From positions 7,259,001 to 7,302,772 of the forward strand of contig NZ_KK037166.1 of assembly GCF_000568255.1 (NCBI RefSeq): a stretch of 43,772 nt of DNA, given 5' to 3'. Each line of letters opens with the position of its first letter. Positions within the stretch are counted from its first letter, which is position 1. Source of the stretch: Kutzneria sp. 744 (lineage in GTDB: Bacteria > Actinomycetota > Actinomycetes > Mycobacteriales > Pseudonocardiaceae). Shown in pieces: positions 28,951 through 32,209 of this stretch. A program made the translations under genes and the position numbers. The notes under the pieces are model-generated. The model was not told where the DNA came from, did no database searches, and was given only the letters and a program-made list of their open reading frames with translations.

Positions 28951-29319
28951 ATGGCGGTGAAGCGGCCGAACCCGGCGTTGTGGCTCTGGTACTCGCTCGG
29001 CGGCCGGCTGCCGCAGTCCTACCGTGAGTGGGTCCTGCGCGATGTGGTCAGCAGGACCTGGCTGCTCCGGCACCTGCTGCGCACGTTCCTGCGGCTGCTG
29101 ATCCCGCTGGGCATCCTGTACATCGTGTTGTCCCAGTTCGGCGGGCCGCTCTACATCATCCTGATGGCCCTTGGCCTCGGCCTCATCGTCGGCCTGTACT
29201 ACTCGCTCAGCTACGCCTCCGAGGCCAACGACGCCCGGCTGCGCAAGTACGGCTACCCGTCGGCCTACGGCAGCACCATCCGGGACAACCGGTTCTCGGA
29301 GGAGGACCGGCCGCAGTAG
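28951..29319 (+). CDS. DUF5313 family membrane protein
   Basis: 122 residues. Starts MAVKRPNPALWLWYSLGGRL followed by LPQSYREWVLRDVVSRTWLLRH, the hallmark of DUF5313 proteins of mycobacteria and relatives. Two hydrophobic segments (LLIPLGILYIVLSQF and LYIILMALGLGLIVGLYYSL) predict a small inner-membrane protein with both ends on the same side, and a charged C-terminal tail (ANDARLRKYGYP, SEEDRPQ). Divergent from the TPR gene across 61 bases and convergent with the rhodanese gene 7 bases away. No function is established for the family. Confidence 0.82.
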   Translation: MAVKRPNPALWLWYSLGGRLPQSYREWVLRDVVSRTWLLRHLLRTFLRLLIPLGILYIVLSQFGGPLYIILMALGLGLIVGLYYSLSYASEANDARLRKYGYPSAYGSTIRDNRFSEEDRPQ

Positions 29320-29326
29320 TCCGGTT

Positions 29327-29719
29327 CTACGGCACAGCTGGACGTCCGCCGGCCACCACGGGCAGGCCGGCCTCGGCCCAGCCTCGGAAGCCGCCGACCA
29401 GGTCGGTCGCCGTCGTCAGGCCCAGCCGTCGCAGGTCCCGGGCGGCCAGGCTGGAGGCGTAGCCCTCGTTGCAGAGCACGATCACCGCCGTGGCGTCGTC
29501 GACCTCCGGCAGGCGGTTCGGGCTGGCCGGGTCCAGGCGCCACTCCAGGTGGATCCGCTCCACCGGCACCGAGCCCGGGATCTCGCCCTCCTCGGCCCGG
29601 TTGGCGATCGGCCGGATGTCCACCAGCAGGGCGCCCTCGTCCTGCAGCCGCTTGGCCTCGGCCGGGTCCACCCGGTCCAGCTCGGCGCGGGCCTGGTCGA
29701 GGTACTCGTCGACCGTCAC
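29327..29719 (-). CDS. Rhodanese-like sulfurtransferase
   Basis: 130 residues, a single rhodanese domain. Typical landmarks: LLVDIRPIANRAEEGEIPGSV, and the active-site loop VLCNEGYASSLAA, where the Cys would carry the persulfide. C-terminal VGGFRGWAEAGLPV is also standard. The GTG start overlaps the cysteine dioxygenase stop by 4 bases, so it is translated with it. Single-domain rhodaneses paired with cysteine dioxygenase are a common actinobacterial arrangement linked to sulfur metabolism; handling of sulfane sulfur from cysteine is inferred. Confidence 0.9.
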   Translation of the reverse strand: MTVDEYLDQARAELDRVDPAEAKRLQDEGALLVDIRPIANRAEEGEIPGSVPVERIHLEWRLDPASPNRLPEVDDATAVIVLCNEGYASSLAARDLRRLGLTTATDLVGGFRGWAEAGLPVVAGGRPAVP

Positions 29720-30216
29720 TTCACGTCCTCCAGGCTGGCGTACTCGCGGGTCGGCAGCAGCGGCGGCGAGTAGGCGTGCACACTCGCGGCCGGCGCCACC
29801 TCGAGATTACGCACCTGGTGGGCGCGGCCGCCGCTGAAGCCCACGGCCTCGCCCAGCTCGCGCCGCATCGTGCGGATCGGGCCGCCCGGGTAGCGGTAGT
29901 CCTCGTTCAGCCGCCCCTTGAGCACCGTGAACGAGCCGGCCGCGCCGCCGTGGTCGTGCGGCTGCGTGCCCTGTCCTGGCAGCCAGGACAGCAGCCACAC
30001 CTCCACCCCGCCGGTCAGCGCCAGCCGCGCCCACCAGCGCTTCGGCTCCTCGAACCGCAGCACGCCCAGCAGCGGCGTGGTCAGCTCGGTGGCGATGGTG
30101 CTGGTCAGGTCGCGTAGCTGCGACGGCGTCCACAGCGGACGCGCCGGCTGGATCAGGTCACGCAGCAGCGGCAGGTCGAGGGCGGGGTGGACGTCGAGAT
30201 CGATGGCGAGAGTCAC
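29716..30216 (-). CDS. Cysteine dioxygenase type I
   Basis: 166 residues from GTG 30216, preferred because CAGGAG lies 8 bases upstream; a longer frame to 30243 has no such site. Iron-binding histidines are visible in QPHDHGGAAGSFTVLKG and GGRAHQVRN, and the catalytic Tyr in VHAYSPPL. The family oxidises cysteine to cysteine sulfinic acid with O2 using a mononuclear Fe(II), in the cytosol. It heads a two-gene operon with the rhodanese and is preceded by a cysteine-codon leader ORF (30291-30383), which suggests control by cysteine supply. The Cys of the mammalian Cys-Tyr crosslink is replaced by Gly, as is normal in bacteria. Confidence 0.9.
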   Translation of the reverse strand: MTLAIDLDVHPALDLPLLRDLIQPARPLWTPSQLRDLTSTIATELTTPLLGVLRFEEPKRWWARLALTGGVEVWLLSWLPGQGTQPHDHGGAAGSFTVLKGRLNEDYRYPGGPIRTMRRELGEAVGFSGGRAHQVRNLEVAPAASVHAYSPPLLPTREYASLEDVK

Positions 30217-30254
30217 GGGTTTGGCTCCTGCGGGTCGCGGCACGGGACGAAGGT

Positions 30255-30335
30255 GCGGACGCGACGGGCCGGCTTACGCAGTGCAGGTGATCAGCGGCCG
30301 CGTCGCGTGCGGGTACACCCGCAGGAGGCGACGCG
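30255..30335 (-). promoter_or_regulatory. Attenuator-like alternative hairpins
   Basis: Reading the minus strand, segment 1 (30335-30328, CGCGTCGC) can pair with segment 2 (30306-30299, GCGACGCG), enclosing a second stem GCGGG/CCCGC at 30322-30309. Segment 2 can instead pair with segment 3 (30270-30259, GGCCCGTCGCGT, one bulged base). The two states exclude each other. Cys codons 21 and 23 of the leader ORF lie between segments 1 and 2, so ribosome position could pick the fold. The mechanism is inference. Confidence 0.55.
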
Positions 30336-30383
30336 AACGAGGTCGACAACGAGGTCGCACCAGGTCGTCCTTGGCCGGATCAT
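30291..30383 (-). CDS. Cysteine-rich leader peptide (30 residues)
   Basis: Short ORF upstream of cysteine dioxygenase on the same strand. It begins MIRPRTTWCDLVVDLVRVAS and ends CGCTRTRRGR, giving Cys at positions 9, 21 and 23. A basic start, a 'DL.RV' centre and a Cys-x-Cys near the end is the pattern of actinobacterial leader peptides found before sulfur-metabolism genes, where cysteine codon translation controls the downstream operon. It stops 74 bases before the dioxygenase start. The ATG at 30383 has only a poor ribosome site (GAGG about 16 bases upstream), and it may be leaderless or use a nearby transcript start. Too short to be found by length alone; identified by context and motif. 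Confidence 0.65.
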   Translation of the reverse strand: MIRPRTTWCDLVVDLVRVASCGCTRTRRGR

Positions 30384-30459
30384 GACCCGATGTTCGCACG
30401 CCTCACACTGGCCTGGCGACCGCTTCCACCTGCTGAAATCATGTCGGACACCGACAAAT

Positions 30460-30575
30460 CCCCGCGAGTCGCGCTCTCGGGCAGGGTGAGTTGCGGTTTC
30501 GGGCAGTTCTGAGACCCGAGGCGCGGTTCTGCCCGAAACCGTGTTTCGGTGTGCCGGAGAGCGTGACTCGCGGGG
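30460..30575. repeat. Nested inverted repeats upstream of the leader ORF
   Basis: Outer 19-base arms (30460-30478, 30557-30575) with one mismatch, starting CCCCGCGAGTC; inner 13-base arms CGGTTTCGGGCAG (30494-30506) and its complement (30529-30541). Could end transcription of the 540-residue gene at 30587, and lies upstream of the cysteine leader. Confidence 0.65.
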
Positions 30576-30586
30576 GTTCGGGGTGG

Positions 30587-32209
30587 CTAGCCTCGGGTGT
30601 GCCAGCCGCGGTGGCGCTCGGCCAGCTTCTGGGCGTGCGCCGCCACCGTCTCGTCGCCGTAGTGCTCGGCGATCACCAGCAGCACCTCGCACGTCCGCGG
30701 CTGGTCCGACCGCCACACCAGGTTCAGGAACTCGATCGTCTGCGCCGTGTCCCCGTGCTCGGCCACCGCGTCCAGCATCCGCGCCACGTTGCCGGCGTCC
30801 AACAGTCCCGTCAGCTCGGCCACGTGGGCGTCGGCGATACGCACCGCCGGCACGTCCCCGCCGTCCAAAGCCTTGTGCCGCAACAGCCACAGCAGCGCCG
30901 GGCCGTCATGCGGACCGCCGAGCAGCAGCCGCACCGGCGGCACCGTGCGCTTCTCGCCGAACACGTCCCCGCACGCCTGGATCGCCGTCATCACCTCGGC
31001 CGTCGGCCGGTCCGGCGTCGCGACCCGGCTGATCAGCTCACGCGCGTTGTGCCGGTCCGTCTGCTCCATGCTCCACTCGCGCACGTCGTCGGCCCACTCG
31101 TCACCGGCCGCCGGGATCGCGTCGATCAGCTCGTTCACCGTGGACCACAGGGCGTGCGGCAGCACCCGCACCGGCAGCCCGTTCTCTTCGGCCACGTCCA
31201 CCAGGATCGGCATCCCGCACGCGGTCAGCCGCGCCTCGCGGCCCAGCGCGAACATCAGGCCGCAGTCCATCAGGAAGTCCACGACCTCGCCCGGCACCGG
31301 CACCTCGCGCAGGTCCAGCGACCGGCGTGCGACCGCCGCCTTCACCAGCTCGATGCTCAGCTGCACCAGGCTGCGCCCCGGCAGCTTCGGATGCGCCGCG
31401 AACACCTTGCGGATCAGGTTCACCGAATGCTTCTCGACCTTGCGCCACGCCGCCACCTGGACCAGGCGGCCCTTCAACCGCCGCACCGCACCCGCCGCCA
31501 GCGCCCACGCCAGCACGCGGGGCAGCTCGGCCGGATCGACGCCCAGCGTGAGGGCGATCTCGTCCGGCAAGGCTTTGTCGACCAGCTCCAGGCCGTCCTC
31601 GCCGCACGCCTGGCGCAGCTGCGCGAACCACACGAACACCGACGCCCGCTCCGCCGCGAACCACTGCTCACGCTCGTTCGGCAGCCGCAGCGGGCCTACC
31701 GCCCGCTCGTCGATGCCGTCCAGCGCCTTGGCCACCTCGTCCACGGGCATCGTGCGCACCCGGGACACCAGCTCCGCGAACGTCAGCGCCTGGTCGCCCC
31801 GCACGTGCTGGAACAGCGCCTTGGCCCGCACGTCGTAGGAGACGCGGTGCTCCGCCGCCTCCCACACCTCCTCGCAGCGGTCGCCCATCTCGTCCGGCAG
31901 GTCGCTGTCCGTGGACAACATGCCGTAGCGGGCCAGGAACTCCAGCAGCGGATGCAGCGTGAGCGACCCGTTCGCGCACACCGTCTCCGGCAGGCCCAGC
32001 CGGTCCGGCAGGTACTCCAGCAGGAACCGGTCGATGTCGCGGACCGTCCAGCGGAAGTAGCCGTTGGTCGGGCCGAGACTGCTCCAGTCCAGTGCCATGA
32101 TGGCGTCCTGGACGTGCTCGACCGGCGTGTGCCGGTGCTCGGCCCACTCCAGGAACTGCGCGACCAGGTGGTCGCGAAGCTCGGGGTCGGTGCCCCACGG
32201 CTGCTGCAT
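30587..32209 (-). CDS. Hypothetical protein, 540 residues
   Basis: No family recognised. Mostly helical and soluble, no signal peptide or membrane segment. The first ~200 residues begin MQQPWGTDPELRDHLVAQF and contain an aromatic stretch WSSLGPTNGYFRWTVRDIDRF; a winged-helix-like middle (LARVLAWALAAGAVRRLKGRLV-type alternation, here PRVLAWALAAGAVRRLKGRL) follows, and the final ~130 residues are repeated short helices (LLWLLRHKALDGGD, LTGLLDAGNVARMLDAVAEHGD) like HEAT-type repeats. Only scattered cysteines (four or five). Coding is supported by length and by consistent third-position GC. Divergent from the sigma factor across 115 bases. Confidence 0.75.
   Translation of the reverse strand: MQQPWGTDPELRDHLVAQFLEWAEHRHTPVEHVQDAIMALDWSSLGPTNGYFRWTVRDIDRFLLEYLPDRLGLPETVCANGSLTLHPLLEFLARYGMLSTDSDLPDEMGDRCEEVWEAAEHRVSYDVRAKALFQHVRGDQALTFAELVSRVRTMPVDEVAKALDGIDERAVGPLRLPNEREQWFAAERASVFVWFAQLRQACGEDGLELVDKALPDEIALTLGVDPAELPRVLAWALAAGAVRRLKGRLVQVAAWRKVEKHSVNLIRKVFAAHPKLPGRSLVQLSIELVKAAVARRSLDLREVPVPGEVVDFLMDCGLMFALGREARLTACGMPILVDVAEENGLPVRVLPHALWSTVNELIDAIPAAGDEWADDVREWSMEQTDRHNARELISRVATPDRPTAEVMTAIQACGDVFGEKRTVPPVRLLLGGPHDGPALLWLLRHKALDGGDVPAVRIADAHVAELTGLLDAGNVARMLDAVAEHGDTAQTIEFLNLVWRSDQPRTCEVLLVIAEHYGDETVAAHAQKLAERHRGWHTRG

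Follow-up and report, generated by a model that had tools for sequence, protein, structure and literature searches.

The dioxygenase-rhodanese operon of Kutzneria sp. 744, a member of Pseudonocardiaceae, is preceded by a short leader ORF with cysteine codons, and this leader is a real, widely conserved and functional-looking cis-regulatory element with an unexpected target. The window analysed is a stretch of 43,772 nt of contig NZ_KK037166.1, to which all coordinates refer. With a probability of about 0.5, the leader is a cis-acting translational attenuator on a leaderless mRNA, which would read the supply of Cys-tRNA and turn the operon on in cysteine shortage. A sequence-only reading had placed a 30-residue ORF with cysteines at positions 9, 21 and 23 before the dioxygenase-rhodanese pair, and its sequence and coordinates are right. 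The genes and the cysteine codons are as follows.

30291..30383, minus strand: 30-codon leader ORF MIRPRTTWCDLVVDLVRVASCGCTRTRRGR plus stop (ATG at 30383, TGA ending at 30291)
29716..30216, minus strand: cysteine-dioxygenase-family (CDO) gene, 166 aa, GTG start at 30216 (Pfam PF05995, E 2.9e-13)
29327..29719, minus strand: rhodanese gene, the start of which overlaps the CDO stop (Pfam PF00581, E 9.7e-14)
30359-30357, minus strand: Cys9 codon TGC, read from the sequence
30321..30323, minus strand: Cys21 codon TGC, read from the sequence
30315..30317, minus strand: Cys23 codon TGT, invariant, read from the sequence and from 82/82 distinct cores

The leader is located upstream of the CDO gene at 94 of 94 orthologous Pseudonocardiaceae loci (91 distinct) among the best CDO hits; 93 leaders were detected by pattern and one (L027) by eye. 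These loci are a non-random sample, consisting of the window (L001), 4 and 29 best-hit loci and 60 loci picked for genus spread, with three duplicate genomes included. In total, 96 loci and the window copy were compared, and L002 and L003, which are paralogous CDO genes of the same genome, were left out of the counts. The orthologous CDO proteins other than L001 show 62.9 to 93.4% identity to the window protein over the aligned part, and a rhodanese gene lies behind CDO on the same strand at all 94 loci. The leader stop and the CDO start are 35 to 232 nt apart (median 75), a gap which indicates that the leader ORF is separate from the CDO frame. Many overlapping ORFs are present in this region of 70% G+C, and the leader could in principle be a chance ORF or a part of an extended dioxygenase frame. 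Such an artefact is very improbable, as the leader has its own stop codon and the above gap, is found at every best-hit locus, and has a promoter immediately upstream. A lack of conservation of the ORF, the cysteines or the pairing in close relatives, which the sequence-only reading had named as a refutation, failed to occur.

The leader is widespread, not universal. Six genomes with close CDO (G041, G012, G261, G262, G259 and G175; E 4e-51 to 2e-67), chosen since the leader profile search gave no match, showed no leader when the upstream DNA was inspected by eye. In genus g28, the leader is present in G263 (L087) and absent from G261 and G262 (L205 and L206), where the promoter-like region is partly kept; this loss is usable as a natural control. 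With the leader profile A1, 373 of the 386 family genomes are hit at E up to 0.1, and the strong matches occur chiefly with close CDO, according to a comparison of the two hit lists by eye only. G112, G168 and G359 have no close CDO and weak leader hits (E 0.006-0.08), and leader-like hits (E 2.6e-7 to 4.4e-6) occur in five g30 genomes that have no close CDO. Outside the family, one typed 30-aa leader query matched none of the 147 other genomes of the class at E up to 0.01; the only match among the 148 was the window's own genome. PF05995 is present in 49 of 296 phylum genomes, and no leader was found upstream of 30 phylum PF05995 loci with a narrow motif pattern, a similar one having missed the true leader L027.

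Among 82 distinct cores, the DL motif has an invariant D and an invariant L (82/82), R three residues before D is present in 76/82, and V four residues after D in 76/82. The last cysteine (D+9, Cys23 of the window) is also invariant, and its codon is TGT in 82/82. Of the three cysteines of the sequence-only reading, therefore, Cys23 is held throughout, whereas the D+7 position (Cys21) is Cys in 59/82 cores, with TGC in 57 of the 59, and the position of Cys9 is Arg in 50/82. The Cys codons counted in the structural genes of these loci are TGC in 96 of 96 cases (CDO 2, rhodanese 94; sequence as far as covered), and those of seven window genes in 13 of 13; since the loci are related, the leader and structural-gene counts are non-independent. 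The contrast between TGT in the leader and TGC in the structural genes within one operon is sharp. An invariant UGU where the operon otherwise writes UGC suggests that the codon choice is a part of the sensor. In the canonical Cys leaders, all Cys codons taken together are mixed (TGT 35, TGC 25).

The number and the setting of the cysteines vary. A single Cys is present in the leaders of 16 of 75 distinct relatives, and two adjacent Cys at the leader end are restricted to the VVTAACC type, the window having Cys-Gly-Cys. Six loci of one genus (L036, L048, L057, L059, L062 and L064) have a recoded core, DLQKLNLCGC or CAC, in which C-x-C and TGT are kept; these cores are a natural test of which peptide residues matter. 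Leaders of the Saccharopolyspora type (L007, L073, L077, L082-L086 and similar ones) end at most one codon after TGT and have no 3' arm, which implies a different RNA arrangement.

Two features are located upstream of the leader.

30390..30398, minus strand: extended -10 element TGCGAACAT with the predicted transcription start at the leader start codon, from the promoter pattern in relatives
30423..30438, minus strand: possible operator ahead of the promoter, an imperfect dyad TTTCA-N5-TGGAAG, from the sequence

The pattern nAnnnT ends 5-7 nt before the leader start in 90 of 90 distinct upstream sequences, compared with 1 of 94 CDO starts and 8.8% of background positions, an enrichment that is biased because the leader starts were picked partly by that match. 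TG at -8/-7, which played no part in picking the starts, is present in 90/90 unique promoters, and so is A/T at -4/0 of the -10 element (90/90). In Streptomyces lividans, the distance from the -10 element to the start site averages 6.3 nt (PMC8079986). The extended -10 element of the leader ends 6-7 nt ahead of the start codon. By this spacing, a -10 element so near the start codon predicts a leaderless transcript, and the promoter geometry fits a start codon at the transcript 5' end, as in the mycobacterial type. Blocks of the form TC-N6,7-TRRR are present in 72 of the 90 unique promoters and mostly begin 46-47 nt ahead of the final -10 base. A TTCCA-N5-TGGGA-like dyad lies about 46 nt before the -10 end, and similar blocks were seen by eye in the leader-less CDO loci (L205-L210). 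Thus, the dyad may act as an operon operator that does not depend on the leader.

The RNA segments of the window are as follows.

30328..30335, minus strand: segment 1 CGCGUCGC, from the sequence
30296..30308, minus strand: segment 2 ACGCGACGCGGCC, the leader 3' end (T-R-R-G codons), from the sequence and the duplex
30259..30270, minus strand: segment 3 GGCCCGUCGCGU, from the sequence and the duplex
30234..30239, minus strand: segment 4 CGCGAC, immediately ahead of the SD and able to pair with segment 3 in place of segment 2, from the sequence
30317..30327, minus strand: anti-SD CUCCUGCGGGU spanning the Cys21 codon, perfect complement of 30225-30235
30225..30235, minus strand: SD region ACCCGCAGGAG of the dioxygenase gene, from the sequence

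Segments 1 and 2 can form 8 bp, and segments 2 and 3 can form 8 bp and 4 bp around a one-base bulge; the two pairings are mutually exclusive, and the 2:3 hairpin encloses the leader stop codon. The complementarities of the earlier reading, in which segments 1 and 3 compete for segment 2 and the stretch from segment 1 to segment 2 contains Cys21 and Cys23, are right. Both folds which it set against each other are possible, but the strongest predicted lock in the window is the duplex between the SD and the Cys-codon region. This 11-nt perfect complement (30327-30317 / 30235-30225) connects the SD with the region of the Cys21 codon, and was absent from the earlier note. The single-sequence fold of the window is mildly better than dinucleotide shuffles (z -1.94, 7/200). 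As this signal is weak, the weight is placed on the conservation and the codon-level nulls.

The order of segments 1-2-3-4 and the location of control codons between the first two resemble the trp/ilv-type transcription attenuators, but the window lacks their terminator and U-run. No terminator-like site was detected in 29300-30600 (0 sites), and Rfam gave no match in the window. A transcription attenuator would have an intrinsic terminator before the structural gene, and none was detected there. Of the translation-dependent attenuator proposed earlier, the conserved Cys leader and the alternative folds are well supported, but its action is predicted to be translational rather than transcriptional, with the SD paired to the leader or, in other genera, to segment 3.

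The noncoding stretch shows strong conservation across 32 relatives from several genera. In these relatives, the leader arm GACGCGACGCGG pairs with CCGCGUCGCGUC, and GUCGCGUCUUGAUCGCUAC, which overlaps CCGCGUCGCGUC, pairs with the SD-containing GUAGCCAUCAGGAGCGAC, so that the two pairings compete. Covariation had been suggested as a check, and was found for a part of the folds. The 2:3 pairing with the hairpin before the SD has a covariation score of 0.101 against 0.081 in shuffles (0/500), whereas its two-sided pairs (73/500) and pair types (210/500) are ordinary; RNAalifold recovered the 2:3 helix unaided. The 3:4 hairpin with the SD in other genera scores 0.061 against 0.053 (22/500), and 91.7% of its cells are paired against at most 58.2% when slid. 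The leader:SD (anti-SD) helices show no covariation, being nearly invariant. Segment 1:2 was rejected as a covarying helix (96.9% paired, no two-sided covariation in the 32 relatives). Over 73 loci, the 75 nt that directly precede the CDO start are more stably folded than their dinucleotide shuffles (mean z -1.23, p 4e-10), and those of the window and its closest relatives fold no better than shuffles (z -0.7 to 0.4).

Codon-level nulls were made by swapping the leader codons for random synonyms at 75 non-redundant loci, so that the peptide is kept and the RNA is tested; the p-values treat the loci as independent, and the loci are related. The codon usage was pooled from the CDO genes, which hold two Cys codons, both TGC. 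Therefore the main null, used for SD:leader pairing, ensemble energy and first-Cys access, drew TGC alone, and the later nulls drew 9:1. The SD:leader pairing is 0.641 in the native sequences and 0.308 in the null (p 5e-9, 75 loci), and the ensemble energy is -109.1 and -101.8, respectively (p 1e-9, 75 loci). These results indicate that the pairing between the leader and the SD region is under selection, and in the computed folds the SD is sequestered by leader-dependent pairing. When the upstream codons were randomised, the SD:leader pairing fell to 0.508 (p 1.5e-4), SD access at the stall was unchanged (p 0.65), and the stall-minus-stop difference showed no significant change (p 0.09). When the downstream codons were randomised, SD access at the first-Cys stall fell from 0.262 to 0.198 (p 4e-4). 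The codons after the Cys motif also contribute to the free-state pairing (p 2e-8). The duplex between the leader 3' arm and segment 3 is -32.2 kcal/mol against -24.7 kcal/mol in the null (p 3e-12, 65 scorable of the 75 loci), and its sequences differ between clades. The fraction of loci at p < 0.05 for this duplex is 0.86 in g14/39, 0.75 in g25, 0.68 in g8 and others, 0.5 in g23, 0.5 in g11, and 0.17 in Kutzneria (about 1/6 loci).

The computed evidence consists of the conserved ORF, its invariant UGU, the promoter and the codon-level selection for the pairings; from it, we infer translation, stalling, SD exposure and the direction of control in the following way. Transcription would start at the leader start codon, as the promoter suggests, and a ribosome would translate the leader. 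Should it pass the Cys codons and reach the stop, the dioxygenase SD would be paired and the dioxygenase-rhodanese operon would be poorly translated; the partner of the SD would be the Cys-codon region of the leader in the window and two near relatives, or the segment 3:4 hairpin in other genera. When charged tRNA-Cys is short, the ribosome would stall around the Cys codons and cover the anti-SD. The stalled ribosome would leave the leader 3' arm free to hold segment 3, so that the SD would be exposed and the operon translated. ermC and cat are translational attenuators, and like attenuators of their type the SD would be masked by uORF pairing and exposed by a stalled ribosome, as far as the available descriptions of that type go. 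Unlike in the ermC/cat type, the signal would be Cys-tRNA and no drug, and the initiation would be leaderless.

Ribosome positions were modelled by masking. For the window, the predicted SD:leader pairing is 0.98 in the free RNA and drops to 0.00 once a ribosome occupies Cys21 or Cys23. In three loci (the window, L008 and L011), the model keeps the SD bound to the Cys-codon region as long as the RNA is free or the ribosome sits at the stop or at codon 9 or 29, and frees it when the ribosome is at Cys21 or Cys23 (access 0.25 to 0.56). Thus 3 of the 6 distinct Kutzneria loci show a clear switch, which is weak in L005 and absent from L004 and L052. Over the 75 loci, SD access with the ribosome masked at the first Cys after DL is 0.262 against 0.176 at the stop, and the codon null gives 0.196 and 0.195; the first-Cys-minus-stop difference is 0.087 against 0.001 in the null (p 3e-4). 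With the ribosome masked at D+7 throughout, the access is 0.286 against 0.176 at the stop, and the difference is 0.110 against 0.006 in the null at 30 C (p 2e-5) and 0.111 against 0.005 at 37 C (p 1e-5). For a stall at the invariant TGT, no family-wide opening was found at 30 C (0.008 against -0.002, p 0.49), at 37 C (0.006 against -0.004, p 0.42) or with a shorter footprint (p 0.95). When the stall position and the temperature were separated, the position is what matters. The opening at D+7 is also present in 21 loci without Cys there (p 0.029, 0.013), and hence the control codon and the favourable ribosome position fail to coincide in the model.

When segment 3 is occupied, the modelled SD access over 73 loci increases from 0.19 to 0.32 (p 8e-7), with a marginal advantage over a control block (p 0.045); in this test, the arm of the Saccharopolyspora-type loci ran past the leader stop. 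No effect of segment 3 occupation was found in Kutzneria or g11. As a control of the direction, canonical Cys leaders were scored at 32 of 35 loci, with L103 left out, several loci near-identical and at least one start clearly mis-set. In contrast to the window family, they gave no such signal for stall minus stop (p 0.61), while stall minus free gave p 0.029, so that the model misses the expected direction there. According to these models, a stall that opens the SD would be the best reading for the window, and overall it stands at about even odds.

The D+7 result is relevant to a nascent-peptide arrest switch, in which the conserved peptide core, in addition to the tRNA supply, would pause the ribosome on a thiol or redox signal, followed by the same RNA rearrangement downstream. 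The modelled opening is tied to the position two codons before TGT, Cys or not; the non-Cys residues DL, R and V are conserved as described above, and 23 of the 82 cores have no Cys at D+7. On the other hand, the invariant TGT choice points to decoding or RNA beyond the peptide, and the amino acids there are partly constrained by the RNA pairing. We consider such an arrest quite unlikely.

The result at the invariant TGT, where the direction of a stall opening the SD fails, also bears on the opposite direction, in which the operon would be on when cysteine is replete. Translation through the Cys codons would prevent the strong 2:3 hairpin, which would otherwise block the operon by Rho, pausing or blocked 30S loading, and abundance would induce oxidation, the physiologically expected direction. 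The 2:3 hairpin, enclosing the leader stop, is the RNA element with the strongest codon-level signal, and the operon gene belongs to the cysteine-dioxygenase family. Moreover, it would be physiologically strange for a cell short of cysteine to induce a cysteine dioxygenase, and this counts against the shortage model. However, no intrinsic terminator is present, holding segment 3 frees the SD from the SD-containing 3:4 hairpin in several genera, related leaders of the same genome precede assimilation genes according to our reading of the translations, and mycobacterial Cys leaders are described, in the accounts available, as cysteine-responsive attenuators. Induction by abundant cysteine is considered unlikely, and the attenuator that responds to cysteine shortage is taken as the main reading.

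The polycysteine leaderless short ORFs of mycobacteria include the Ms4527A and Ms5788A families (Canestrari et al., 2020). In the accounts that cite this work, these are leaderless small ORFs with Cys codons near the end upstream of sulfur genes, and the window leader, leaderless by prediction, resembles them. In comparison with these accounts, the window leader has no run of Cys codons and no contiguous Cys, and it differs in its conserved core W-x-D-R-x-I/V-D-L-L-L-V-A-S-C-G-C, the thiol-dioxygenase target and the codon-level RNA switch. Thirty leaders were compared with NCBIfam at E up to 1, and weak matches were obtained to NF042934 (8), Ms5788A (5) and Ms4527A (4). The window leader shares the V-D-L-x-R-V-x-S-x-x-C end with NF042934 (cis_reg_atten, 'putative leader peptide'), but its score of 17 bits (E 0.0033; 15.2 bits in the genome scan) is below the curated cut-off of 27. 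Therefore it is a relative or an analogue of the known leader families, and no scored member. Among the literature matches listed, no leader ahead of a cysteine dioxygenase was found. Among the cysteine leaders of actinobacteria, this one represents a new form, which would act by a translational switch and has an unexpected target. In the same genome, Cys-leader candidates (L097-L101 and L104) are located before SsuD-like, DUF4395 and sulfurtransferase, sulfite reductase, ABC permease, secreted protein and MetY-like genes, by reading of the translations; leaders of the NF042934 type are the ones before the sulfite reductase, SsuD-like, DUF4395/sulfurtransferase and MetY-like genes.

The window CDO protein scores above the Pfam PF05995 cut-off and has the CDO cupin fold. 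Its nearest solved chains by sequence are 8qfr/8qfl, and the closest solved relative by sequence carries the PDB title of an ergothioneine dioxygenase; the name is from the PDB titles, and no paper on this enzyme was found among the literature matches listed. The structural comparison gave a tie between ergothioneine dioxygenase and B. subtilis CDO. The role in cysteine breakdown assumed by the sequence-only reading is putative, and the window enzyme may be a sulfur-scavenging thiol dioxygenase. Two further CDO-family genes are present in the genome. The second (L102, G000:C1:7385699-7386225) is preceded by another leader that resembles NF042934, MTERRGHIDLCRVCGALCLPR (22.8 bits), located 44 nt ahead of the best start. 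Separate Cys leaders thus seem to govern two thiol-dioxygenase genes. The third (L003, G000:C1:8255802-8256191) has a rhodanese neighbour (49% identical), and a pattern search upstream found no leader.

The cysteine leaders described to date, in the accounts available, precede sulfur-assimilation genes, while the window leader precedes the operon of a cysteine-oxidising enzyme family, and therefore the direction of control directly tests the purpose of the enzyme. The leader, the competing folds and the two-gene operon are present in many cultivable genera, and are easy to test. It is conceivable, though rather doubtful, that across much of Pseudonocardiaceae cysteine starvation is sensed at the invariant UGU of a leaderless leader and switches on a thiol-dioxygenase/rhodanese operon, the enzyme of which would have no cysteine-disposal role and would free sulfur from a stored thiol, for example ergothioneine, to refill the cysteine pool.
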